Source: Pseudofrankia inefficax
GTDB lineage: Bacteria > Actinomycetota > Actinomycetes > Frankiales > Frankiaceae
DNA length: 64,000 nt
Direction: 5' to 3'
Assembly: GCF_000166135.1 (NCBI RefSeq)
Contig: NC_014666.1
Location: 3,968,001 to 4,032,000 of the forward strand
The position numbers were made by a program, and so were the translations under genes. Under the pieces are notes generated by a model. The model saw nothing but the letters and a program-made list of their open reading frames with translations. It did no database searches and was not told where the DNA came from. Of the stretch, positions 4,953-49,259 are shown piece after piece; within the stretch, counting starts at the first letter, position 1, and each line of letters opens with the position of its first letter.

Positions 4953-6031
4953 CGCGACGTGGCCCAGCGCTGAGCGATCGCGTCGGCGCCGGCTCGGCGC
5001 GGGCGGCTCGGCGCGGCGGGAGCGCTGCGCGAGAACCGGGGCGCCGGCGCGGGCTGCAGGTCGCCGGCGACGGGGGCGAACGTCCGCCGGGTGGCGAGCT
5101 GCGGATGGTCCGGTGCCTCGGCGAACGACAGGACCGGGGTGACACACGCGTCGCGGTCGGCGAACACCACCGCCCACTCGTCCCGGCCTCGGGACCGGAA
5201 GGCCGCGGCGATCCGGTCCCGCAGCAGTGGCCAGCCGGCGCGGTCCCGCTGGGCGGGCAGGTCCGCGGCGGCGAGACCGAGCCCGTCGAGCAGCTGGGCG
5301 TAGAACTTCGGCTCGACCGCGCCGACGGCGACGTACCGGCCGTCGGCGCACTCGTAGGTGTCGTAATAGGGCGCCCCCGAGTCGAGGGCGTTCGTCCCCC
5401 GGCGGTCCGACCACCTCCCGTCGGCCCGGAACGACCAGATCATCTGGCTCAGCACGCTCACTCCGTCCACCATCGCCGCGTCGACGACCTGACCGGCGCC
5501 GGACCGTTCCCGCTCCCACAGCGCGGCGAGGATGCCCACGAGCAGGAACATCGAGCCGCCACCGAAGTCGCCGACGAGGTTCAGCGGCGGCACCGGCCGG
5601 TCGCCCGCGTGCCCGATCGCGTTCAGCACCCCGGTCAGGGCGATGTAGTTGATGTCGTGGCCGGCCCGCGCCGCGAGCGGACCGTCCTGGCCCCACCCGG
5701 TGATCCGCGCGTACACCAGCCGCGGGTTCGCGGCCAGGCAGGCCGCCGGCCCGAGGCCGAGGCGTTCCAGCACCCCGGGGCGGAACGGGTCGATGAGCAC
5801 GTCCGCGCCGGCGGCGAGCGCCAGGGCCCGGTCCCGGCCGGCCGGCGACTTCAGGTCGAGCTCGGTCGCCGTCCGCCCGCGCAGCAGGAAGTCCGAGTCC
5901 GGCGCCTGCTCGTGGGGGCGGCTGACGTGGACCACGTCGGCGCCGAGGTCGGCCAGGATCATCCCGGCGTGCGGGCCCGGCCCGAGGCCGGCGAGCTCCA
6001 GCACCCGCAGCCCGGTCAGCGGCCCCGCCAT
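4949..6031 (-). CDS. Alpha-methylacyl-CoA racemase (CoA transferase family III)
   Basis: A 360-residue family III CoA-transferase-fold protein that closely resembles mycobacterial alpha-methylacyl-CoA racemase from end to end. It opens with [20 protein letters not shown]. The catalytic His (AGHDINY, His125) and Asp (VGDFGGG, Asp155) align with the known H126/D156 pair, and [12 protein letters not shown] follows. It inverts the 2-methyl stereocentre so methyl-branched acyl-CoAs can enter beta-oxidation. It overlaps a hydratase gene at each end (ATGA downstream, 16 nt upstream). This gene gives the best clue to the operon substrate: a 2-methyl-branched acyl chain. Confidence 0.93.
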
Positions 6032-6780
6032 ACCGGCGCCCTCCGCTCGGCGAAGGCCCGCGCACCCTCGCGGGCGTCCTCGGACGCGGCGACCGGCGCG
6101 ACGATCTCGGACTGCCGGCGCCACCGCTCGTCGGCGCGCCACTGAGTCCCGTCGGTCGCGAGCAGCTTCGACGCGGCCACCGCCAGCGGGCCGTTGCCCG
6201 CGATCGTCGTCGCGAGCTCGACCGCCGTCTGGAGCGCCTCGCCCGGCTCGGCCAGGCGGTTGACCAGGCCGACGTCGAACGCCCGCGCCGCGTCGACCGG
6301 CTCACCGGTCAGCAGCAGTTCCAGCGCGACGGCCGGGGCGATCCGGCTGGCCAGGGTGAGCGCCCCGCCGCCGGAGGCGACCAGGCCGCGCTTCACCTCG
6401 GGTACTCCGAACCGGGCCGCCGTCGAGGCCACCACCAGGTCGCAGGCGAGCGCCAGCTCGAACCCGCCGGCCAGCGCCCAGCCCTCGACCGCCGCGACCA
6501 TCGGCTTGCGCGGCCGGGTCTGGGTGATGCCGCACAGGCCGCGGCCCTCGATCACCGGCCGCTCGCCGCGCAGGAACGCCTTGAGGTCCATCCCGGAGCA
6601 GAAGGTGCCACCCGCGCCGGTGAGGACCCCGGCGCGCAGCTCGTCCGTCTCGTCCAGCTCGTCGACGGCGGCACAGATCTTCGTCGCGACGCTGAGGTCG
6701 AGCGCGTTGCGCGCCTCCGGCCGGTTGATCGTGATGACCTGGACCGCGCCGACGCGGCTCACCAGCACGTCGTCAGCCAC
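6016..6780 (-). CDS. Enoyl-CoA hydratase/isomerase family protein
   Basis: A crotonase-fold protein of about 254 residues with [21 protein letters not shown] and [15 protein letters not shown]. The first catalytic Glu is kept (PEVKRGL) while the second-Glu region is Gly-rich (SGGGAL). The GTG at 6780 is preferred as the start because GAGG lies 6 nt upstream; a second in-frame GTG at 6792 has poorer spacing. It overlaps the dehydrogenase stop upstream and the racemase start downstream, so it sits inside one transcription unit. Confidence 0.88.
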
Positions 6781-7759
6781 CTGCCACCTCACTCTCCAAC
6801 GCCGCCCAGACCCGGCCGCGGTGCAGCCGGTGGGTGCCCCACGCGGACAGCAGAGCCCGGACCTTCAGCAGCCAGACCGACAGGGTGTGCTCCGCCGTGT
6901 ACCCGATCGCGCCGTGCACCTGCAGCGCCGTCCGGGCCGCCAGGTGTGCCCCGGTGGCGCAGGCGACCCACGCCGCCGAGACGTCTCGGCCCACGGTCGG
7001 CCCGCCCGGCCCGGCCACGGCGAGGGCTGCGCCCGACAGCAGCGGGCGGGCGAACTCCAGCGCGACCGCGACGTCGGCGAGCTGGTGCTTCACGGCCTGG
7101 AACGAGCCGATCGGCGCACCGAACTGGCGGCGCAGCTTCGCGTAGTCGACGGTCTGCTCCAGGAGTGCCGCGCCCGCTCCCAGCAGGTAGGCGGCCGTCG
7201 CCAGGGCGCCGCGGTCGAAGGCCGCCGCGGGGTCGACCGCGCCCAGCGGCTCGCCGGCCTCGACGACGCCGAGGCGCCGCGACGGGTCGACCGAGTCCCG
7301 GCCGCCGGTGACCCGCGCGTAGGCGAGCCCGCCGGCGGTCACGACGAAGGAAACGTCGGCCGCGGCGGCGTCGACGGCGTAGGGCACCCGCGGGGGCAGC
7401 GCCACGGTCGCGACGAGCGAGCCGGCGCCGATGGGTTCGAGCCGGTCCGCGGCCGGGGTTCCGGCGAGCAGCATCGGCAGCACCGCGACCGACTCGACAT
7501 AGGGGCCCGGCACCGCGGCTCGGCCCAGCTGCTCGAAGGCGAGCACGAGATCGACCGGGGTGGCGTCGACGCCGCCGTGCTCCGGTGGCAGGCCCAGGGC
7601 GAGCACGCCCTGGTCGGCGAGCTTGCGCCACAGCGCGCGGCCCGGGGCCGGGTCGCCGGCGGCCCACGCCCGCGCGATCGACGGGGTGTCCTGGGCGGCG
7701 AGGAAGTCCCGCAGCGAGGCGGCGTAGTCGAGCTGCTCCGGCTGGGGCTGGAACCTCAT
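6773..7759 (-). CDS. Acyl-CoA dehydrogenase family protein (pair 1, short subunit)
   Basis: A 328-residue acyl-CoA dehydrogenase, shorter than the usual 380 or so because the middle domain is reduced. The C-terminal domain is well kept: KLRRQFGAPIGSFQAVKHQLADV and HGAIGYTAEHTLSVWLLK. Its ATG overlaps the stop of the preceding acad gene (ATGA). It most likely forms a heteromeric enzyme with the product of that gene, as inferred from pairing and length. Confidence 0.88.
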   Translation of the reverse strand: MRFQPQPEQLDYAASLRDFLAAQDTPSIARAWAAGDPAPGRALWRKLADQGVLALGLPPEHGGVDATPVDLVLAFEQLGRAAVPGPYVESVAVLPMLLAGTPAADRLEPIGAGSLVATVALPPRVPYAVDAAAADVSFVVTAGGLAYARVTGGRDSVDPSRRLGVVEAGEPLGAVDPAAAFDRGALATAAYLLGAGAALLEQTVDYAKLRRQFGAPIGSFQAVKHQLADVAVALEFARPLLSGAALAVAGPGGPTVGRDVSAAWVACATGAHLAARTALQVHGAIGYTAEHTLSVWLLKVRALLSAWGTHRLHRGRVWAALESEVAGG

Positions 7760-40449: not shown

Positions 40450-42102
40450 ATGAGCAACCTCGCCGGGCCGGTCACGGGGACCGCGCGTGCGCGGGTGGCC
40501 GAGGGGACTGTGCTGCGGTCCCGGCTGGACACGAACGCCGGGCAGTACCGGGCGAATCGGGTGGCCCAGCTGGCGATCCTCGCCGAGTTGGAGGGGGAGC
40601 TGGACAAGGCCCGCGACGGCGGCGGCCTCCGCTACCGGGAACGCCACCGCGGACGTGGTCGGCTGCTGGTCCGGGAACGGATCGAGCTGCTCGTCGACCG
40701 GGACTCGCCACTGCTGGAGCTTTCGCCGCTCGCGGCATGGGGGAGCGAGTTCGCGGTCGGCGCGAGTGTTGTGACGGGGATCGGCGTCGTCGCCGGCGTG
40801 GAGGCGGTGATCATCGCGCATGACCCGACGGTCCGCGGCGGCGCGATGAACCCGTTCTCGCTGCGCAAGACCCTGCGGGCGCTCGACATCGCCAAGCGCA
40901 ACCGGCTGCCCGTGGTGAACCTGGTCGAGTCTGGTGGCGCCGATCTGCCGAACCAGTCGGACCTGTTCGTCCAGGCCGGCAAGATCTTCCACGACCTGAC
41001 CGAGCTGTCGTCGCTGGGAATTCCGACGATCGCGCTGGTCTTCGGGAACTCCACGGCGGGCGGTGCCTACGTCCCCGGCATGTGCGATTACGCCGTGCTC
41101 GTCGACCAGCACGCCAAGGTGTTTCTGGGCGGCCCGCCGCTGGTGAAGATGGCTACCGGCGAGGAGTCCGACGACGAGGATCTCGGCGGCGCCGCGATGC
41201 ACGCCCGGGTTTCCGGGCTCGCGGACTACTTCGCCACCGACGAGCGGGACGCGATCCGGATCGGTCGGCGCATCCTCTCGGAGCTCAACTGGCGCAAGCT
41301 CGGCCCGGGGCCGACTCTGGCCGCCGACCCGCCGCGGTACGACCCCGACGAGCTGCTCGGCATCGCCCCGGCCGACTTCCGGACGCCGTTCGACCCGCGC
41401 GAGGTGCTCGCGCGGGTCGTCGACGGCTCCCGGTTCGGTGAGTACAAGCCGGACTACGGCCGGAGCCTGGTGACGGGCTGGGCGTCGGTACACGGTTTCC
41501 CGGTCGGCGTGCTCGCGAACGCGAACGGCATCCTGTTCTCCGAGGAGTCGAAGAAGGGCGCCGAGTTCATCCAGCTCGCCAACCAGACCGACACGCCGCT
41601 GATCTTCCTGCAGAACACGACCGGATTCATGGTCGGCGCTGCCTACGAGCAGGGCGGCATCATCAAGGACGGCGCCAAGCTGATCAATGCCGTCACGAAC
41701 AGCTCGGTGCCCCATGTCACGATCAACATGGCCGCGTCTTTCGGCGCCGGGAACTATGGCATGTCCGGGCGCGCCTATGACCCGCGCTTCATGTTCGCCT
41801 GGGTCAACGCGAAGCTCGCCGTGATGGGCGCGGCCCAGCTCGCCGGCGTGCTGTCCATCGTCGGGAAGGCGGCGGCAGCCGCGTCGGGCCGACCGTTCGA
41901 CCAGGACGAGGACGACGCGAGGCGGGACACGATCGAACGGCAGATCGCCGCGGAGTCGCATTCCTTCTTCATCAGCGGAAAGCTCTATGACGACGGCGTG
42001 CTCGACCCCCGCGACACCCGCACCGTGCTCGGTATCGCGCTGTCAGCCGCGCATTCGGCGCCGATCGAGGGACGCCGTGGCTACGGCGTCTTCAGGATGT
42101 AG
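40450..42102 (+). CDS. Acyl-CoA carboxylase, carboxyltransferase (beta) subunit
   Basis: A 550-residue carboxyltransferase of the methylcrotonyl/geranyl/propionyl-CoA carboxylase class. It contains ANRVAQLAILAELEGELDKA, ESGGADLPNQSDLF, GNSTAGGAYVPGMCDY and LQNTTGFMVG.AYEQGGIIKDGAK, the latter two being the two oxyanion-hole regions. The ESGGADLP..(F) wording is closest to the MccB/AtuC-type, not PccB. It transfers carboxyl from biotin to an acyl-CoA. It starts the operon and ends 7 nt before the biotin-carboxylase gene. Confidence 0.9.
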   Translation: MSNLAGPVTGTARARVAEGTVLRSRLDTNAGQYRANRVAQLAILAELEGELDKARDGGGLRYRERHRGRGRLLVRERIELLVDRDSPLLELSPLAAWGSEFAVGASVVTGIGVVAGVEAVIIAHDPTVRGGAMNPFSLRKTLRALDIAKRNRLPVVNLVESGGADLPNQSDLFVQAGKIFHDLTELSSLGIPTIALVFGNSTAGGAYVPGMCDYAVLVDQHAKVFLGGPPLVKMATGEESDDEDLGGAAMHARVSGLADYFATDERDAIRIGRRILSELNWRKLGPGPTLAADPPRYDPDELLGIAPADFRTPFDPREVLARVVDGSRFGEYKPDYGRSLVTGWASVHGFPVGVLANANGILFSEESKKGAEFIQLANQTDTPLIFLQNTTGFMVGAAYEQGGIIKDGAKLINAVTNSSVPHVTINMAASFGAGNYGMSGRAYDPRFMFAWVNAKLAVMGAAQLAGVLSIVGKAAAAASGRPFDQDEDDARRDTIERQIAAESHSFFISGKLYDDGVLDPRDTRTVLGIALSAAHSAPIEGRRGYGVFRM

Positions 42103-42109
42103 GGACGCC

Positions 42110-44158
42110 GTGAAGACGATTACCAAGCTGCTCGTCGCGAACCGGGGAGAGATCGCCGCCAGGGTGATCCGCTCCGCGCGTGAGCTCGACATCGCCACCG
42201 TCGCGGTGTTCTCCGACCCTGACGCCGACGCGCCGTTCGTCGCCGCGGCCGACGAGGCGATCCGGCTGCCGGGGGCCACCCCGGGCGAGACCTACCTGCG
42301 CGCCGACCTCATCCTCGCCGCGGCGAGGCGCGTCGGAGCCGACGCCATCCACCCCGGCTACGGCTTTCTGTCGGAGAACGCCGGCTTCGCCCGCGCGTGC
42401 GCCCAGGCCGGCGTCACGTTCGTCGGGCCGTCACCGTCCGCCATCGAGTCGATGGGCTCGAAGACGCGAGCGAAGGACCTGATGGCGGCGGCCGGGGTTC
42501 CCGTACTGCCAGGGCTGGTCGTGGACGAGGCGCTCGCCGCGGACGCGGACGCACTCGTCCGCGCGGCGGCGGACCTGGAGTTCCCGCTGCTGGTCAAGGC
42601 CGTCTACGGCGGTGGTGGTCGCGGCATGCGGATCGTGCGCACCGGGCCGGAACTGGCCGAGGCCGTCACGGGCGCCCGGCGTGAGGCGGCCAGCGCGTTC
42701 GGAGACGGCGCGGTCTTCCTGGAGCACTACGTCGAGCGGCCCCGGCACATCGAGGTACAGGTCCTGGCCGACACCCACGGCAGCGTGGTGCACCTGTTCG
42801 AGCGAGAATGCTCGATCCAACGGCGCTTTCAGAAGATCATCGAGGAAGCCCCCTCGGTCGCGGTCGACGCCCAGCTGCGCGGGCGGCTGGGCGCGGCGGC
42901 GGTCGCGGCGGCGGCGGCGATCGGCTATGTCGGCGCCGGCACCGTCGAGTTCGTCCTCGACCAGTCCGGGCGGTTCTTCTTCCTCGAGGTCAACACACGC
43001 CTGCAGGTGGAGCACCCGGTCACCGAGGAGATCACAGGCCTGGATCTGGTCGCGCTGCAGCTCCTGGTCGCCGAGGGCCATCCGCTGCCTCCCGAGGTCC
43101 ACACCGCGAAGATCAACGGCCATGCGATCGAGGCCCGGCTGTACGCGGAGGACGTGCCCGCGGGCTTCCTGCCGTCGACCGGCACGCTGCACCGGTTCGA
43201 GGTGCCGGAGACGCCGGGAATCCGGGTTGATTCGGGCGTCGCCGCGGGCTCGGTCGTCGGGGTGCACTACGACCCGATGCTGGCCAAGGTGATCGCCCAC
43301 GGTGCCACCCGTGAGCAGGCGATCCGCAGGCTGGCCGCGGCCCTGGACGCCACCCGGGCCCACGGCGTGAGGACGAACCGGGCGTTGTTGGTCGCGATCC
43401 TGCGGGAGGCCGAGTTCCGCGCGGGCGCGATCGACACCGGCTACCTCGATCGACACGACCCGGTCGCGATGGGCTCGCCGGTCGCGGATGAGGAGATGCG
43501 CGCCGCCCACCTGGTCGCCGCCGCCCTCGCCGCCGCGGCCGACCGCCGGTCCACGGCGATCCTCCCGGGAGCGCCGTCCGGCTGGCGCAACGTCGCGTCC
43601 GGGCCGCAGTGCGTCGAGTACGAGACCGCGGGCGACACCGTCGAGGTGACCTACCGTCATCGCGGCAGCGGGGTGGAGGCGACTGTCGCCGGACGACCGC
43701 TCGACGTCGAGCTCCACCACGTCGCCGCCGACCTCGCCGACCTGACCGTCCAGGGCGTCCGTTCTCGGGTGCGGATCACGCGGGTCGCGGCGCCGGCCGC
43801 GGGCCCCACCGTCTATCTGGACGGCAGGGGAGGATCGACGGCCGCGCGCGAGGTGCCGCGGTTCGTCGAACCCGGGTCCGCCACCCCGCCGGGGTCACTC
43901 GTCGCGCCGATGCCGGGCACGGTCGTCCGGCTCGGTGTCGGCGCCCACGGCGCCGTCGCGAAGGGAGACGTCGTGATCATCCTGGAGGCGATGAAGATGG
44001 AACACACGATCAACGCGCCCTACGACGGCGTCGTCGCCGAGCTGTACTTCGCCGCGGGCGACACCGTCGACGGCGGGACCGTGCTCGCCGTGATCACGCC
44101 GAGCGACCCTGCGTCGACGGCGTCGGTCGCGGCGGCGAACCCGGTCGCGGTCGCCTGA
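42110..44158 (+). CDS. Acyl-CoA carboxylase, biotin carboxylase/BCCP (alpha) subunit
   Basis: A 682-residue fusion. Biotin carboxylase domain from KLLVANRGEIAARVIRSA to about residue 445, with the ATP loop KAVYGGGGRGMRIV and the catalytic RLQVEHPVTEEITG. A central linker domain follows. The biotinyl domain at the C-terminus has EAMKMEHTI with the biotinylated Lys629. GTG start follows AGGG. Together with the beta subunit it makes a complete carboxylase. Its stop overlaps the next start (TGATG). Confidence 0.94.
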   Translation: MKTITKLLVANRGEIAARVIRSARELDIATVAVFSDPDADAPFVAAADEAIRLPGATPGETYLRADLILAAARRVGADAIHPGYGFLSENAGFARACAQAGVTFVGPSPSAIESMGSKTRAKDLMAAAGVPVLPGLVVDEALAADADALVRAAADLEFPLLVKAVYGGGGRGMRIVRTGPELAEAVTGARREAASAFGDGAVFLEHYVERPRHIEVQVLADTHGSVVHLFERECSIQRRFQKIIEEAPSVAVDAQLRGRLGAAAVAAAAAIGYVGAGTVEFVLDQSGRFFFLEVNTRLQVEHPVTEEITGLDLVALQLLVAEGHPLPPEVHTAKINGHAIEARLYAEDVPAGFLPSTGTLHRFEVPETPGIRVDSGVAAGSVVGVHYDPMLAKVIAHGATREQAIRRLAAALDATRAHGVRTNRALLVAILREAEFRAGAIDTGYLDRHDPVAMGSPVADEEMRAAHLVAAALAAAADRRSTAILPGAPSGWRNVASGPQCVEYETAGDTVEVTYRHRGSGVEATVAGRPLDVELHHVAADLADLTVQGVRSRVRITRVAAPAAGPTVYLDGRGGSTAAREVPRFVEPGSATPPGSLVAPMPGTVVRLGVGAHGAVAKGDVVIILEAMKMEHTINAPYDGVVAELYFAAGDTVDGGTVLAVITPSDPASTASVAAANPVAVA

Positions 44159-44967
44159 TGGCGGTCGATGCCGCGGTGCTCGTCGCGGACGTGGCCGCTG
44201 AGGCCGCCGACCTCGCCACCCTGCTGCGCCCGCTGGACGAGAACGGCTGGCGTACCCCCACCCCCGCGAAGGGATGGGACATCCTCGACCAGATCGCTCA
44301 CCTCGCCTTCTGGGACGAGGTCGCGACGCTCGCCGCCACTGACGCCGAGGGGTTCGCGGTCGAAAGACAGGCCCTCGTCTCGCTCGGCGACGACTTCGCC
44401 GACGTCGTCGCCGCGCGCTTCCGTGACCGAACCGGCGCGGAGGTGTTCGGTTGGTTCCTCCAGGCACGCCGGGAACTGCTGGCCGCGCTGGTCGCGGTGC
44501 CCGACGGGACGAAGCTGCCGTGGTTCGGCCCGCCGATGAGCGCCGCGAGCTCGCTGACCGCACGGCTGATGGAGACCTGGGCGCACGGACAGGACGTCGC
44601 CGACGCGCTCGGCGCCTCCCGAATACCGACGAGGCGGCTACGCCACATCGCCCGGCTCGGCGTCGCGACGATCGCCTGGAGCTTCGCCGTGCACGGCCGG
44701 CCCGCGCCGACGGCGCCGTTCCGCGTCGAGCTGTCAGCACCCGACGGTGGCCTGTGGGCGTGGGGCCCGCCGGACGCCGCGAATGTCGTGCGCGGCCCGG
44801 CGCGCGATTTCTGCCTGCTGGTCACGCAGCGCCGCCACCGCTCGGCGCTGGCCCTGACAACCACCGGCACGGAGGCGGCGACGTTCCTGGAGGTCGCCCA
44901 GATCTTCGCCGGCCCGCCAGCGGCCGGCCGCGCGCCGATCAGCCAGACACCGGAGCAGCCGCGATGA
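44158..44967 (+). CDS. TIGR03084 family metal-binding protein (DinB/maleylpyruvate-isomerase-like)
   Basis: A 269-residue four-helix-bundle protein. Conserved metal-ligand positions appear in GWDILDQIAHLAFWDEVA near residue 39 and METWAHGQDVADALG near 139. This family recurs next to carboxylase and AtuA-like genes in actinobacteria; no activity is established. It overlaps the carboxylase stop by 1 nt and the AtuA-like start by 4 nt, so all are translationally linked. Confidence 0.85.
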   Translation: MAVDAAVLVADVAAEAADLATLLRPLDENGWRTPTPAKGWDILDQIAHLAFWDEVATLAATDAEGFAVERQALVSLGDDFADVVAARFRDRTGAEVFGWFLQARRELLAALVAVPDGTKLPWFGPPMSAASSLTARLMETWAHGQDVADALGASRIPTRRLRHIARLGVATIAWSFAVHGRPAPTAPFRVELSAPDGGLWAWGPPDAANVVRGPARDFCLLVTQRRHRSALALTTTGTEAATFLEVAQIFAGPPAAGRAPISQTPEQPR

Positions 44968-46844
44968 CGAGACCCGCGGCGGACCAACCTGACGGCACGC
45001 GCCGGCCGGTACGGATCGCCAACTGCTCAGGCTTCTACGGTGACCGGCTCGACGCGGCCCGCCTCATGGTCGACGGCGGCCCGATCGACGTACTCACCGG
45101 CGACTACCTCGCCGAGCTGACGATGCTCATCCTCTGGAAGACCAGGGGCCGGCCCGGGGGGGTCGGCTACGCTCGCACCTTTCTCGCCCAGGTCGAGGAC
45201 GTCCTCGGGAACTGCCTGGACCGTGGCATCAGGATCGTCGCCAACGCCGGCGGGCTCGACCCGGCCGGCCTCGCCGCGAAGGTCCGCGCGGTCGCCGCGG
45301 ACCTCGGCCTGCGCCCGAACATCGCCTACGTCACAGGCGACAACCTGATCGACCGGATTGGCGCGCTGCAGGCCGCCGGCGAGCCGTTCGCCCATCTGGA
45401 CACCGGCCGCCGCCTCGCCGACGCGGGCGTTGAACCGGTCACGGCGAACGCCTACCTCGGCGGCTGGGGCATCGCCGCCGCGCTGTCCAGTGGCGCGGAC
45501 GTGGTCATCGCCCCGAGGGTCACCGATGCCTCGCTCGTACTCGGCCCGGCCGCCTGGTGGCACGACTGGCGGCGCGGCGACTGGGACCGTCTCGCGGGCG
45601 CGGTCGCCGCCGGGCACGTCATCGAGTGCGGCCCGCAAGCCTGCGGCGGCAACTACCCCTTCCTCGACGAGGTGACCGACGGCGGCTATCCCGGCTTCCC
45701 CATCGCCGAGGTCGCCGCCGACGGCAGCAGCGTCATCACCAAGCACCCCGGCACCGGCGGTGCGGTGACCGCCGGCACGGTCACCGCGCAGCTGCTCTAC
45801 GAGATCGCGGCGCCCGCCTACGCGAACCCCGACGTCACCGCGCACTTCGACACGACGCGCCTGACCCACGAGGGCTCCGACAGGGTGCGGCTCGCCGCGA
45901 CGCGGGGCACGCCGCCCTCCGGCCAACTCAAGGTCGCGATGAACTACCTCGGCGGTTATCGCAACACCGTCACCATGGTCATCACCGGTCTCGACATCGA
46001 AGAGAAGGCCAGCCGGGCGCGCCGGGAACTGTTCGACGGCCTGGGAGGGGAGAGCGGCTTCGACGCCGTCGACGTCCAGCTCCTGCGTTTCGATCAGCCG
46101 GATGCCGCGTCGAACGCGTTGGCGACCGCCCACCTGCGGATCACCGTCAAGGACCGGGACGCCACGAAGGCCGGCCGGCGATTCTCGGACGCGGCCAACA
46201 GCCTCTTCCTCGGTGGCTACGCCGGCTTCCACACCACCACACCGCCCGGCGACGCGAGCGCCTTCGGGGTCTACTGGCCCACGCTCATCGCCCGCGACGC
46301 CGTCGCGCAGACGGTCGTCCTCGACGACGCGACCACCCTGGCGATTCCCCACAGTCCCTCCGCTCCCCACAGTCCCTCCGCGGGCCACAGTCCCTCCGCT
46401 CCCCACAGTCCCTCCGCGGGCCACGCCGAAGCCGTCCAACCTACGGCGCCTGCCGTCCCCGCGGTCTGCGGCGGCGCGACGATGCGGGTGCCACTGGGCC
46501 GGATTGTCGGTGCGCGCTCGGGTGACAAGGGCGGCAACGCCAACGTCGGTCTGTGGGCGCGCACCGACGCGTCCTACCGCTGGCTGGCCGGAGCCCTCAC
46601 CGTCGAGACGTTCCGCGCCCTGCTTCCTGAGGCGCACGGCCTGCCTGTCCATCGGTTTGAGCTGGCGAACCTTCGAGCACTGAACTTCGTCGTCGTCGGC
46701 CTGCTGGGCGACGGCGTCGCGTCCAGTGTCCGGGTCGACCCACAGGCCAAAGGGCTCGGCGAGTACGTACGCTCCCGATTCATGGACATCCCCGCGGTCC
46801 TTCTGGAGACCGCCCGGCCCGGATCACGGGCGATCGCCCCGTGA
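44964..46844 (+). CDS. AtuA-like acyclic terpene utilization protein (DUF1446)
   Basis: A 626-residue protein. The N-terminal DUF1446 domain spans about 16-455: RIANCSGFYGDRLDAARLMV, DYLAELTMLIL, ANAGGLDP, ECGPQACGGNYPFLDEV. A Ser/Pro/His linker (about 460-495) contains four 6-residue repeats. The C-terminal ferredoxin-like domain begins PLGRIVGARSGDKGGNANVG. AtuA is required for citronellol/geraniol growth in Pseudomonas, with unknown chemistry. Here it shares an operon with a carboxylase, as in the Atu and Liu pathways. The start overlaps the TIGR03084 stop. Confidence 0.9.
   Translation: MTRPAADQPDGTRRPVRIANCSGFYGDRLDAARLMVDGGPIDVLTGDYLAELTMLILWKTRGRPGGVGYARTFLAQVEDVLGNCLDRGIRIVANAGGLDPAGLAAKVRAVAADLGLRPNIAYVTGDNLIDRIGALQAAGEPFAHLDTGRRLADAGVEPVTANAYLGGWGIAAALSSGADVVIAPRVTDASLVLGPAAWWHDWRRGDWDRLAGAVAAGHVIECGPQACGGNYPFLDEVTDGGYPGFPIAEVAADGSSVITKHPGTGGAVTAGTVTAQLLYEIAAPAYANPDVTAHFDTTRLTHEGSDRVRLAATRGTPPSGQLKVAMNYLGGYRNTVTMVITGLDIEEKASRARRELFDGLGGESGFDAVDVQLLRFDQPDAASNALATAHLRITVKDRDATKAGRRFSDAANSLFLGGYAGFHTTTPPGDASAFGVYWPTLIARDAVAQTVVLDDATTLAIPHSPSAPHSPSAGHSPSAPHSPSAGHAEAVQPTAPAVPAVCGGATMRVPLGRIVGARSGDKGGNANVGLWARTDASYRWLAGALTVETFRALLPEAHGLPVHRFELANLRALNFVVVGLLGDGVASSVRVDPQAKGLGEYVRSRFMDIPAVLLETARPGSRAIAP
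46350..46421 (+). repeat. In-frame 18-bp tandem repeat (4 copies, ABAB) inside the AtuA-like gene
   Basis: Four 18-bp units starting CACAGTCCCTCCGC alternate between endings TCCC and GGGC, so a 36-bp unit is present twice. They encode HSPSAP, HSPSAG, HSPSAP, HSPSAG in the linker between the two AtuA domains. Near-identity at DNA level points to recent expansion. Confidence 0.9.
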
Positions 46845-47440
46845 CGCAGCAGACGGGCAGCCGGGTGCGCGATCCGGAACGCCGGGAGAAGATCCTCGCC
46901 GCGGCGACCGAGCTGATCGCCGCCCGTGGCTACCACGCGGTCACGATGGCGGAGATCGGCCGAGAAGCCGGGATCGTCGGCTCCGGCGTGTACCGGCACT
47001 TCACGGGCAAGGCCGAGGTGCTTTCCGCTCTCCTCGATCAGACCCTGGCCACCTTGCTCGCCGACGCCGCGCGGATCATCGACGCGGGCCACGACAGCGC
47101 GACCACGATCCGGATGCTGGTCCGCTCCCAGGTCGACTTCTCGATCGACAACAGGGACATGGTCCGCCTCTACCGGCAGGAGGCCCCGACGCTGCCCGCC
47201 GAGGATGGACGCCGACTCCGTCGCGCCCAGCGCCACTACAACGAGGAGTGGGCCGCCACGGTCAGCGAGCTACGCCCCGATCTGAACGACGCCGAGACGG
47301 CCGCCCTCGTTCAGGCCGCGATCGCCGCGATCCAGTCGGTCGTCACCTACGACAGTGGACTACCGCGTGCCGATCTCGTCCCGCTGCTCACCACAGCCGC
47401 CCTTTCCTGCCTGGGCCTGGGAGGACTGGGTGACAGATGA
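46841..47440 (+). CDS. TetR family transcriptional regulator
   Basis: A 199-residue TetR protein with HTH from RREKILAAATELIAARGYHAVTMAEIGREAG to SGVYRHFTGKAEVLSALL (about residues 15-62). It belongs to the group with a C-terminal TetR_C domain used for CoA-ester sensing in actinobacterial lipid catabolism (KstR2-like in style). GTG start overlaps the AtuA-like stop (GTGA), so it is made with the operon it probably represses through the TAGTGA sites. Confidence 0.9.
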   Translation: MTQQTGSRVRDPERREKILAAATELIAARGYHAVTMAEIGREAGIVGSGVYRHFTGKAEVLSALLDQTLATLLADAARIIDAGHDSATTIRMLVRSQVDFSIDNRDMVRLYRQEAPTLPAEDGRRLRRAQRHYNEEWAATVSELRPDLNDAETAALVQAAIAAIQSVVTYDSGLPRADLVPLLTTAALSCLGLGGLGDR

Positions 47441-47534
47441 ACAATTCTCACTGTGAGCCGCTGGCCCGACGCCGTCATCGCCCAGCCGCGGGCCAAGACT
47501 AGAGTGACATATGGCGCATAGTGAAAACTATTGT

Positions 47535-47596
47535 CATGGCGGTCATGGCGGGCATGGCGGTCATGGGGGTCATGGCGGTCAGGCGGTCATGGCGGG
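47535..47596 (+). repeat. 9-bp tandem repeat CATGGCGGT upstream of the P450 gene
   Basis: Five in-register 9-bp units (47535-47579), with one or two substitutions, then a degenerate copy and a sixth unit at 47588-47596. If translated from the in-frame ATG at 47511 they encode a (HGG)n tract joined to the P450 N-terminus. Otherwise they are 5' untranslated sequence. Also note ATAGT-GAAA-ACTAT just before, at 47518-47531. Confidence 0.85.
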
Positions 47597-47639
47597 AGGG
47601 TGCGCCGCTGGCGAGTCGACGCAACGGGACGGGATAGCG

Positions 47640-48917
47640 ATGACCTACCTATCCAGCAAGCATCCGGCGGTGCCGTACGGCGAGACGCGCCGCCGCGGGG
47701 TGCCTGCCGCACGGTATCCGGCGCATTCCGACGCGCCTCGGCTCTACGGTCCTGGCGTCAGCCAGAGTCTCGCCGCGCTGTACCGGCAGCTGCGCGCCGA
47801 GCACGGGGTTGTCGCACCCGTTCTGCTCGAGGGGGACATTCCGGCCTGGCTCGTGCTCGGGTACCGGGAGGCGCGTTTCGTCGCCAGCCGCGGCGAGCTC
47901 TTCGACCGAGACTCCGCTCGCTGGAACGCCTGGGACCTGGTTCCACCAGGGTGGCCCCTGCTGCCAGCCGTCGGTAAGGCCGATTCGGTGATGTGGGTGA
48001 GCGGCGCCGAGCACGCCCGCCGCTCCGGTGCCATTCACGACGTGCTTACCGAGGTCGACCTCTTCGAGCTGCGGTCGCGATGCGCGCGGATCGCGGACGA
48101 GCTGGTCGACCGGTTCGCGGACACCGGCGAGGCTGAGCTGATGTACCAGTACGCCCACGTGCTGCCCGCGCGGGCGATCGCCGGGATCCTCGGCATCCCG
48201 GCGCACGAGACGGCAGCGGTTGTGCTCGACCTCGTGCGGATCCTCGACCAGGGCCCGGACGCGCTCGACGCGCACGGCCGGATCAGCGCGCTGCTGGCTC
48301 GACTCGTCGCGCAGCGGCGCGCGGCACCCGGGCGCGATGTCATCTCCCGGCTGGTCGCGCATCCGGCGGCGCTGTCGGACGAGGAGGCGATCCAGGACAT
48401 CTTCGTGCTGGTCGGCGCCGGTCAGCAGCCGACCGCGTACTGGATCGGGAACACGTTGCGGCTCCTGCTCTCCGACGACCGGTTCGCGACGACCCTCGCC
48501 GGCGGTCGGCGCAGCGTCGGCCAGGCGATGGCCGAGGTGCTCTGGGAGGACCCGCCGGTCGCGAACTTCACCGGCCGCTGGGCGGTGCGGTCCACTCAGC
48601 TGGGCGGGCAGCGTATCCAGGCCGGCGACATGCTCGTTCTCGGCGTCGCCGCGGCCAACGTCGACCCGACGATCCGCCCCGACGCCTGTGTCGGCTCCGC
48701 GGGCAACCAAGCCCACCTGGCGTTCGGCCACGGCGAGCATCGATGCCCCGTGCCCGCCGAGGAACTCGCCGAGGCCATCGCCGAAACGGCTGTGGAGGTC
48801 CTCCTCGACCGGCTCCCAGACATCACGCTGGCCATCCCGGCCCACCACCTCGTCTGGACGCCCGCCGTGTGGGTTCGCGGCCTCGCCGCCCTGCCCACCA
48901 CCTTCACCGCCGTCTGA
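47640..48917 (+). CDS. Cytochrome P450, CYP157-like, lacking the ExxR motif
   Basis: A 425-residue P450. The heme loop is FGHGEHRCPVP with Cys369. The I-helix reads LVGAGQQPTA (257-266), without the usual Thr pair. The K-helix, where nearly all P450s have ExxR, reads EVLW (299-302), followed by EDPPVANFTGRWA. These features match CYP157-family P450s of Streptomyces, known for lacking ExxR and often part of conservons; no conservon genes are present here. ATG at 47640 follows GGGACGGG; an in-frame ATG at 47511 would add a Gly/His-rich 43-residue leader. Confidence 0.9.
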   Translation: MTYLSSKHPAVPYGETRRRGVPAARYPAHSDAPRLYGPGVSQSLAALYRQLRAEHGVVAPVLLEGDIPAWLVLGYREARFVASRGELFDRDSARWNAWDLVPPGWPLLPAVGKADSVMWVSGAEHARRSGAIHDVLTEVDLFELRSRCARIADELVDRFADTGEAELMYQYAHVLPARAIAGILGIPAHETAAVVLDLVRILDQGPDALDAHGRISALLARLVAQRRAAPGRDVISRLVAHPAALSDEEAIQDIFVLVGAGQQPTAYWIGNTLRLLLSDDRFATTLAGGRRSVGQAMAEVLWEDPPVANFTGRWAVRSTQLGGQRIQAGDMLVLGVAAANVDPTIRPDACVGSAGNQAHLAFGHGEHRCPVPAEELAEAIAETAVEVLLDRLPDITLAIPAHHLVWTPAVWVRGLAALPTTFTAV

Positions 48918-49259
48918 CCGCCGGGCTCACTGTCAGTAGCCTTCCGACCGCGCACCTACCCGCGCGTGACCTCGCCCAGGGCTTCCCGCCCACGCTGCTC
49001 ACCAGCGGCACCCGCGACCTGTTCCCGTCGAACACGACGCCGGCCTGCCGCTCCCCGGCTACCCGTGTGTTTGAGATCAGCATGCGAGGGCGCGGGGCGG
49101 ACGTCGCGGCGGCCGACAGGCCCGGTCGGCGTCGCGTCGCGCGGTGATCCAGCTCCAGGCGGTCTACCGACGTCGTCCGGCGACCGCTGGACAGCGAAAC
49201 CATAAAGCTGTTTAGGATATGCACGCGGAGGTCCCCGGGACGCACTTTCTGGAGCTGGT
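48918..49259. other. 342-nt intergenic region with gene debris
   Basis: Contains an esterase remnant at 48935-49044. From 49195 to 49225 it is AT-rich (CATAAAGCTGTTTAGGATAT), probably the promoter of the oxidoreductase operon starting at 49260. Nothing else recognised. Confidence 0.5.
48935..49044 (+). pseudogene. Alpha/beta hydrolase (HSL-type esterase) fragment
   Basis: One plus-strand frame reads ARDLAQGFPPTLLTSGTRDL then FPSNT, the piece around the catalytic Asp of HSL-type esterases (usual wording GFPPTLLTSGTRDLLLSNTVR). There is no nucleophile region before it and no His region after it, and the frame then loses similarity. A decayed gene end. Confidence 0.6.

Follow-up and report, generated by a model that had tools for sequence, protein, structure and literature searches.

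We read the P450-type protein encoded in the window, the whole 64-kb stretch of DNA analyzed here, as an orphan CvnE-type accessory protein that probably serves, in trans, a NIT-less CvnA encoded at 2.53 Mb of the same genome, and we put the probability of this reading at about 0.5. Both the reading as a CvnE-type subunit and the choice of the 2.53-Mb CvnA as its partner draw on published findings. According to the accessible part of PMC13343842, CvnA proteins that have no sensor domain come with CvnE and CvnF genes, CvnF8 binds CvnA8 and activates it, and a contact between CvnE11 and CvnA11 is predicted; the same part states that earlier work had not covered the biochemistry of either accessory type, the new biochemistry there concerning CvnF. 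The accessible part of PMC8510531 describes conservons 9–12 of S. coelicolor with CvnE accessory proteins. For the CvnE P450s of conservons, which are actinobacterial G-protein signaling systems, the analyzed genome (G000; 8,815,781 bases in one contig), together with a sister genome (G006), separates linkage from function. The features referred to below are the following.

41987..46844, plus strand: acyl-CoA carboxylase (41987-44158) together with an AtuA-type protein (ORF 44451-46844, probably starting further downstream), an acyclic-terpene-type operon; a neighbor only, the association not being conserved
46841..47440, plus strand: TetR-family regulator, encoded at the end of the upstream operon; a neighbor and not part of the system (annotation of neighbors)
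47511..47639, plus strand: possible N-terminal leader in the same frame, containing seven 9-bp repeats (HGG repeats) and missing from the closest relative
47640..48917, plus strand: CYP157A-type P450-fold protein of 425 aa, putative orphan CvnE homolog (ORF, alignment and fold model)
48417..48443, plus strand: I-helix motif AGQQPTAYW, residues 260-268, with Gln-Pro in place of the acid/Thr pair (alignment)
48501..48521, plus strand: loop before helix K, GGRRSVG, residues 288-294 (alignment and AlphaFold2 confidence)
48534..48545, plus strand: K-helix EVLW, residues 299-302, at the ExxR position (alignment)
48720..48764, plus strand: heme-ligand loop AFGHGEHRCPVPAEE, with Cys369 at 48744-48746 (alignment)

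The open reading frame around the P450 gene runs from 47511 to 48917 on the plus strand, with its longest in-frame reading opening at 47511. Position 47640 is a better start than 47511, because homology to the closest relative, the copy in the sister genome, begins at 47626, the start context GATAGCG-ATG-ACC is common to both copies, and the HGG leader is not. This leader (47511-47639) contains a tandem repeat of seven 9-bp copies at 47533-47595, which encodes HGG in the P450 frame upstream of the likely start, and it is probably not translated. A start at 47511 including the His-Gly-Gly repeats was set aside on account of the leaderless relative, though the leader could still be strain specific.

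An AlphaFold2 model of the protein, based on a 78-sequence alignment, had a mean pLDDT of 89.4 and a pTM of 0.90, and its top Foldseek match scored a TM of 0.83/0.88. The model indicates a complete, full-length P450 fold. The best structural likeness in the PDB was to CYP154C1 (1gwi) and CYP154C2 (9u53), with Z of 45.7 and 45.6 over 384 aligned residues at 2.0 Å, yet identity was about 27%. CYP154s are true monooxygenases with both ExxR and the acid/Thr pair, in keeping with our alignment and with the PDB entry titles. Model confidence fell below 50 at residues 285-289 (GGRR loop 288-291) and at residues 354-356 (around N356); both stretches are conserved, and the GGRR loop and the N356 stretch are possible candidates, on the model, for partner-contact surfaces.

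Profile searches recovered the protein poorly. The Pfam P450 profile PF00067 gave no match to it at E 0.1, and it was missing from the 71 matches of a whole-genome PF00067 search; at E 0.01, the profile likewise gave no match to a conservon copy (L061) or to a 70% paralog (L021). CYP157A proteins can therefore escape PF00067 (3/3 tested), and P450 surveys based on this profile may undercount them. A Pfam EAD1 match (E 0.016, below cut-off) was taken as chance. The P450-derived glycosyltransferase activators (TIGR04515) are a case of the P450 fold in a helper role and, to our knowledge, have no heme Cys; a reading of the window P450 as one of them was rejected, its one basis being a weak NCBIfam score far below cut-off (76.7 versus 343).

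By motif and by identity to conservon-borne relatives, officially named CYP157 sequences not being among them, assignment of the protein to the CYP157A family is supported. It was 49–61% identical to 79 of the best 80 named loci and 75% identical to one genus member. Most of the 79 best named relatives, which come from actinomycetes, sit directly behind cvnD and carry the same motifs, a likeness to the CvnE of conservons. The accessible part of PMC3599690 gives EVLW as the CYP157A motif, listing it for CYP157A of S. virginiae (Svu023) and of S. avermitilis (CYP157A2). The proteins described there share with the window P450 membership of the P450 superfamily, EVLW in place of ExxR, and a heme-loop motif departing from GxxxCxG, but that family is tied to upstream conservons, whereas the window P450 has none. 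The CYP157-type call made in the earlier note on this DNA thus stands. CYP157C, with the published motif EQxLW, resembles CYP157A in having Trp for Arg and a conservon location, and copies reading VEQ[MI]LWDDP were present in genomes G002, G003, G006, G010, G014, and G029. It differs from the window P450 in that identity is about 40%, the I-helix Glu is kept (6/6 copies fetched), and no insertion follows the Cys.

Our motif alignment comprised 70 CYP157-type rows and 8 ordinary P450s, with redundant rows removed beforehand. Both hallmarks of an ordinary monooxygenase, the ExxR Arg and the I-helix acid/Thr pair, were missing from the window P450 in this alignment, in agreement with the earlier note on both points. 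EVLW aligned with the ExxR of the ordinary P450s, placing Trp302 opposite an Arg present in 8/8, so that the K-helix Arg is replaced by Trp and no Arg was found there. In the I-helix, the Glu263/Thr264 of 8/8 ordinary P450s is Gln263/Pro264, while the following Thr265 is retained. The same note had also claimed that only the heme Cys was kept, which was wrong: the Glu of ExxR is present in the window P450, as in 61/70 CYP157-type rows, so two classic residues remain (Glu and Cys). Cys369 lies in FGHGEHRC, which fits FxxGxxxC, and Cys was present in 70/70 CYP157-type rows; relative to ordinary CxG P450s, the window P450 has a two-residue insertion after it. Conservation among the CYP157-type rows also extended to W268 (67/70), G288 (70/70), and R290 (67/70). 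The meander Arg found in 6/8 ordinary P450s was not conserved in the CYP157-type rows, and the L-helix Arg of 6/8 ordinary P450s was Glu in 60/70.

The K-helix Trp was present in 70/70 CYP157-type rows, partly owing to motif-based fetching, as the best 80 named loci were retrieved with two peptide patterns, one of which contains Trp ([ED]VLWED[PT]P). Because this biases the Trp counts of the named set and of the 70-row alignment, we prefer the family set, which was gathered by whole-protein similarity and without the motif. There, Trp was found in 52/53 matches above 250 bits with a readable K-helix, the remaining one being an ordinary P450; fragments and two Arg-bearing ordinary P450s, all scoring below 250 bits, had been removed from the count. 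The first K-helix residue among the 52 Trp-type proteins was E in 34, Q in 10, D in 4, R in 3, and A in 1, and Cys was absent from only 2, each a split reading frame. An acid at position 263 occurred in 1/46 CYP157A-like copies, and acid plus Thr in 0/46. The K-helix, I-helix, and Cys-loop traits are thus, across these alignments, a family property, none of them unique to the window P450. Loss of the acid/Thr pair and of the presumed proximal-side arginines would suggest a non-catalytic protein.

The genome has six DUF742 (cvnC) loci, corresponding to six conservons, four with a NIT domain in CvnA and two NIT-less. No cvnA-D genes were found within the 64-kb window, and the nearest conservons lie about 1.49 Mb away (at 2.53 Mb) and 1.59 Mb away (at 5.61 Mb), which bears out the earlier observation that this P450 stands outside any conservon. 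The CvnE of a conservon would be expected in an operon directly downstream of cvnA-B-C-D; the window P450 gene is not in such a position and, reciprocally, the conservon of its cognate type is without cvnE.

That conservon is the one at 2.53 Mb. In a CvnB+C+D tree of 28 conservons, it (L152) and its sister-genome ortholog (L159) grouped with the CYP157A-carrying conservons of genomes G001, G002, G003, G005, and G007, where CYP157A lies 81 to 426 bp behind cvnD. No NIT domain was detected by profile in the CvnA of L152 or L159. DNA synteny of the 2.53-Mb conservon with G001 and G003 covers galT/galK-like upstream genes (identified by eye) as well as cvnA-D but reaches no further than the end of cvnD, which an unrelated gene faces at a distance of about 25 bp. 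Searches of 14 kb around this conservon and of the 14 kb fetched around its ortholog found no CYP157A. The only conservon of the CYP157A-carrying type in the genome is therefore intact but without an adjoining CYP157A, and comparison with the sister genome gave dN/dS values of 0.25 for cvnA, 0.10 for cvnB, 0.22 for cvnC, and 0.03 for cvnD, so that the operon is under purifying selection. Most simply, cvnE would have been lost from this operon in the lineage of the two genomes; that it never arose there seems less likely, since it is present in five sister operons and in those of other genera.

CYP157A genes are present elsewhere in the genome. In addition to the window gene, we found a copy at 5.60 Mb (70% identity) and two solitary copies, at 4.12 Mb and 4.15 Mb (53%); when the P450s of the genome were ranked by similarity to the window P450, the fourth CYP157A scored E 2e-131 and the fifth match was far weaker, at E 1e-23. 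A distance of 2.9 kb separates the 5.60-Mb gene from a conservon with a NIT domain in its CvnA. The sister genome also contains four CYP157A genes, none beside its ortholog of the 2.53-Mb conservon.

A tree of 109 sequences, from which redundant rows had been removed, placed the window P450 and its sister-genome counterpart in a clade that also holds the 5.60-Mb copy and orphans of G001, G002, and G003. This clade was sister (support 0.98) to one holding most of the genus conservon copies (L057, L059, L060, and L061, with one orphan, L062), for which reason the window P450 would most simply have arisen by duplication of a conservon CYP157A. That the conservon's own cvnE moved directly to this site is not supported, as G001, G002, and G003 have members of the clade and retain a conservon copy as well.

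The window copy and its sister-genome counterpart share 91% protein identity, with DNA homology limited to 47626-48930 (90.3%) and only two further, distant matches (224 and 314 bp, 73–75%). In the sister genome, the AtuA operon and the downstream genes of the window lie on separate contigs (C214 and C278), and the flanks of the sister-genome copy are scattered in the analyzed genome. The 4.12-Mb pair similarly has only 1.47 kb in common between the two genomes, and synteny extends over many kilobases in the remaining two pairs. For the window pair, dN/dS was 0.14 (bootstrap 0.09-0.20), with 0.25-0.30 against more distant paralogs, and dS was 0.29 compared with 0.08-0.15 for seven other gene pairs of these genomes, about a twofold difference. 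These estimates indicate an intact gene under purifying selection with an accessory-genome history. A pseudogene reading was rejected on the intact frame and the low dN/dS. Genome G004 had no intact CYP157A at cut-off, only a remnant (L163, 2863-3153, minus strand) beside a NIT-type conservon, where the two sister genomes hold the 5.60-Mb type of copy.

Across 35 family genomes, the same 22 had both a CYP157-type gene (E <= 1e-75) and a CvnA resembling that of L061 (E <= 1e-60), and the other 13 had neither. The P450 lies close behind cvnD in 20 of the 22, where co-occurrence is expected from physical linkage; the telling cases are the analyzed genome and its sister, as both keep the two parts apart. 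Absence of NIT was established by profile in these two genomes only, and elsewhere by similarity to the L061 CvnA, which shows HATPase_c alone. Individual genomes varied: G010 had only the CYP157C type with its CvnA, G029 had a CYP157C-type copy with no second CvnA match at cut-off though cvnD adjoins it, G017 had CvnA and CYP on different contigs with the CYP behind cvnB-C-D, and the sister genome also had a CYP157C-type conservon (L185).

With matches below 400 bits removed, CYP157-type copies lay directly after cvnD in 62/89 of the named set and 23/49 of the family set, and were orphans in 13/89 and 12/49, the counts not being additive because the two sets overlap in at least nine loci. "Orphan" here means that the stretch fetched contained no cvnB, cvnC, or cvnD and extended more than 4.5 kb upstream; two rows of the named set labeled "near" (L101 at 9909 and L146 at 1) are actually upstream of a cvnD. 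In themselves, orphans of the CYP157 type are no rarity. Four genomes (G001, G002, G003, and G005) hold a conservon copy as well as orphans, so orphans need not be replacements, and 10/10 genomes with an orphan CYP157A carry 2 to 10 CYP157-type matches. A plasmid search returned relatives below 60% identity in 68 records. What is new here is the genomic context, an orphan CYP157A together with a cvnE-less conservon of the cognate type, the EVLW/CYP157A kind being already known; the literature searched, which held few subscription papers, yielded no description of an orphan CvnE together with a conservon lacking cvnE.

Broken copies were also seen. In G026 and G028 (L179 5459-6709 and L181 5118-6368, both plus strand), the CYP157A behind cvnD is split into two open stretches, and an intact second copy lies about 0.5 kb downstream. 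In G003, two frames are also all that is left of an orphan CYP157A of the LLMSQAKT type (L041/L069, contig C1, around 7545923-7547120), which is open over its length in G001 (L064) and G005 (L063).

From these data, a working model can be proposed. The window P450 has retained its P450 fold and its heme-ligand Cys, with the oxygen-activation and K-helix machinery partly missing, and we therefore consider it most likely that the protein binds heme and responds to redox, gas, or a ligand, rather than being an ordinary monooxygenase. Its partner would most likely be a CvnA histidine kinase without a sensor domain of its own. The 2.53-Mb conservon would then, in the absence of its own cvnE, probably receive the subunit in trans from dispersed paralogs, the window P450 among them. 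A heme-sensor role is best in line with the co-occurrence with NIT-less CvnA and with what the accessible part of PMC13343842 describes. Counting against action in trans, the tree makes the window copy a paralog and not the relocated cvnE, the 70% copy 2.9 kb beyond a NIT-type conservon blurs the rule of sensor-less CvnA, and any of the four copies could serve the 2.53-Mb kinase. More tentatively, and with some doubt on our part, CvnE proteins may be exchangeable trans-acting heme sensors, with a sensor-less CvnA of this actinomycete genus that would have lost the CYP157A of its operon being served by a pool of dispersed paralogs, the window P450 among them; if true, several heme-protein inputs would feed one G-protein system. 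Should the orphan bind and tune the kinase of the P450-less operon, the CvnE–CvnA partnership would be shown directly; should it not, the P450 would have a life of its own.

The main rival takes up this last possibility. The orphan CYP157A may have left conservon signaling and act independently, be it as an enzyme (in peroxygenase, isomerase, or dehydratase chemistry, for instance, without the acid/Thr pair) or as a heme protein, which we regard as possible but rather unlikely. Such a role would suit the complete fold with its Cys ligand and the coexistence of orphans with a conservon copy in four genomes. Selection was also tighter on orphan pairs (dN/dS 0.14-0.17, n=6) than on conservon-linked pairs (0.39-0.45, n=3), which could likewise mean a role of their own. 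However, orphan and conservon copies are alike in their unusual K-helix, I-helix, and Cys loop, which gives no hint of a return to ordinary catalysis, and the surroundings of orphans vary between genomes. Nor was a credible separate ferredoxin gene seen near the window P450, using three patterns on short frames (five matches were judged by eye to be chance). A further alternative, that this is a mobile gene of the accessory genome kept by transfer, a spread duplicate with no fixed partner or settled role, seems improbable to us. The orphan pairs window/L052 and L022/L065 are homologous only in the gene region and have different flanks, the dS of the window pair is raised, and remnants do occur (G004, and the split copies in G003, G026, and G028), all as such a history would predict. 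The window P450 is nonetheless intact and under purifying selection, and a tandem-repeat scan of the gene edges, also inspected by eye, showed only the leader repeat.

The earlier note had placed the P450 after a terpenoid-type operon and suggested catalysis on terpenoids. The position was correct: a same-strand set of AtuA, acyl-CoA carboxylase, and TetR genes ends 199 bp upstream. The best NCBIfam match of the P450 was, moreover, to pentalenolactone synthase, a terpenoid P450, but its score of 95 bits is far below the cut-off of 700. Membership of the AtuA operon as a terpenoid-active P450 nevertheless looks very improbable. Three relatives (G002, G005, and G006) have the operon, and in 0/3 does a CYP157A adjoin it; the closest CYP157A relative, in the sister genome, sits in unrelated surroundings, with homology ending at the gene; and the acid/Thr pair is missing. 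The AtuA-type protein has a Pfam AtuA_ferredoxin domain, which we take as the name of a fold and not as a redox partner.

Finally, other genes were observed beside conservons of these genomes. At one NIT-less conservon of the analyzed genome (L156, C1:2329000-2343000; 5251-7120, minus strand), the gene of a styrene-monooxygenase-like flavoprotein (Pfam Smoa_sbd, E 1e-44) begins within cvnD; it occupies the accessory slot and encodes neither a P450 (CvnE) nor a GAF protein (CvnF). The same flavoprotein gene, 88% identical, also follows cvnD in G002 (L067, same contig as L122). At L021 (4045-9519, minus strand) and L055, a thioesterase-like gene and a gene for an unknown protein lie between a NIT-type conservon and CYP157A, an arrangement that departs from the usual pairing of CvnE with a sensor-less CvnA.
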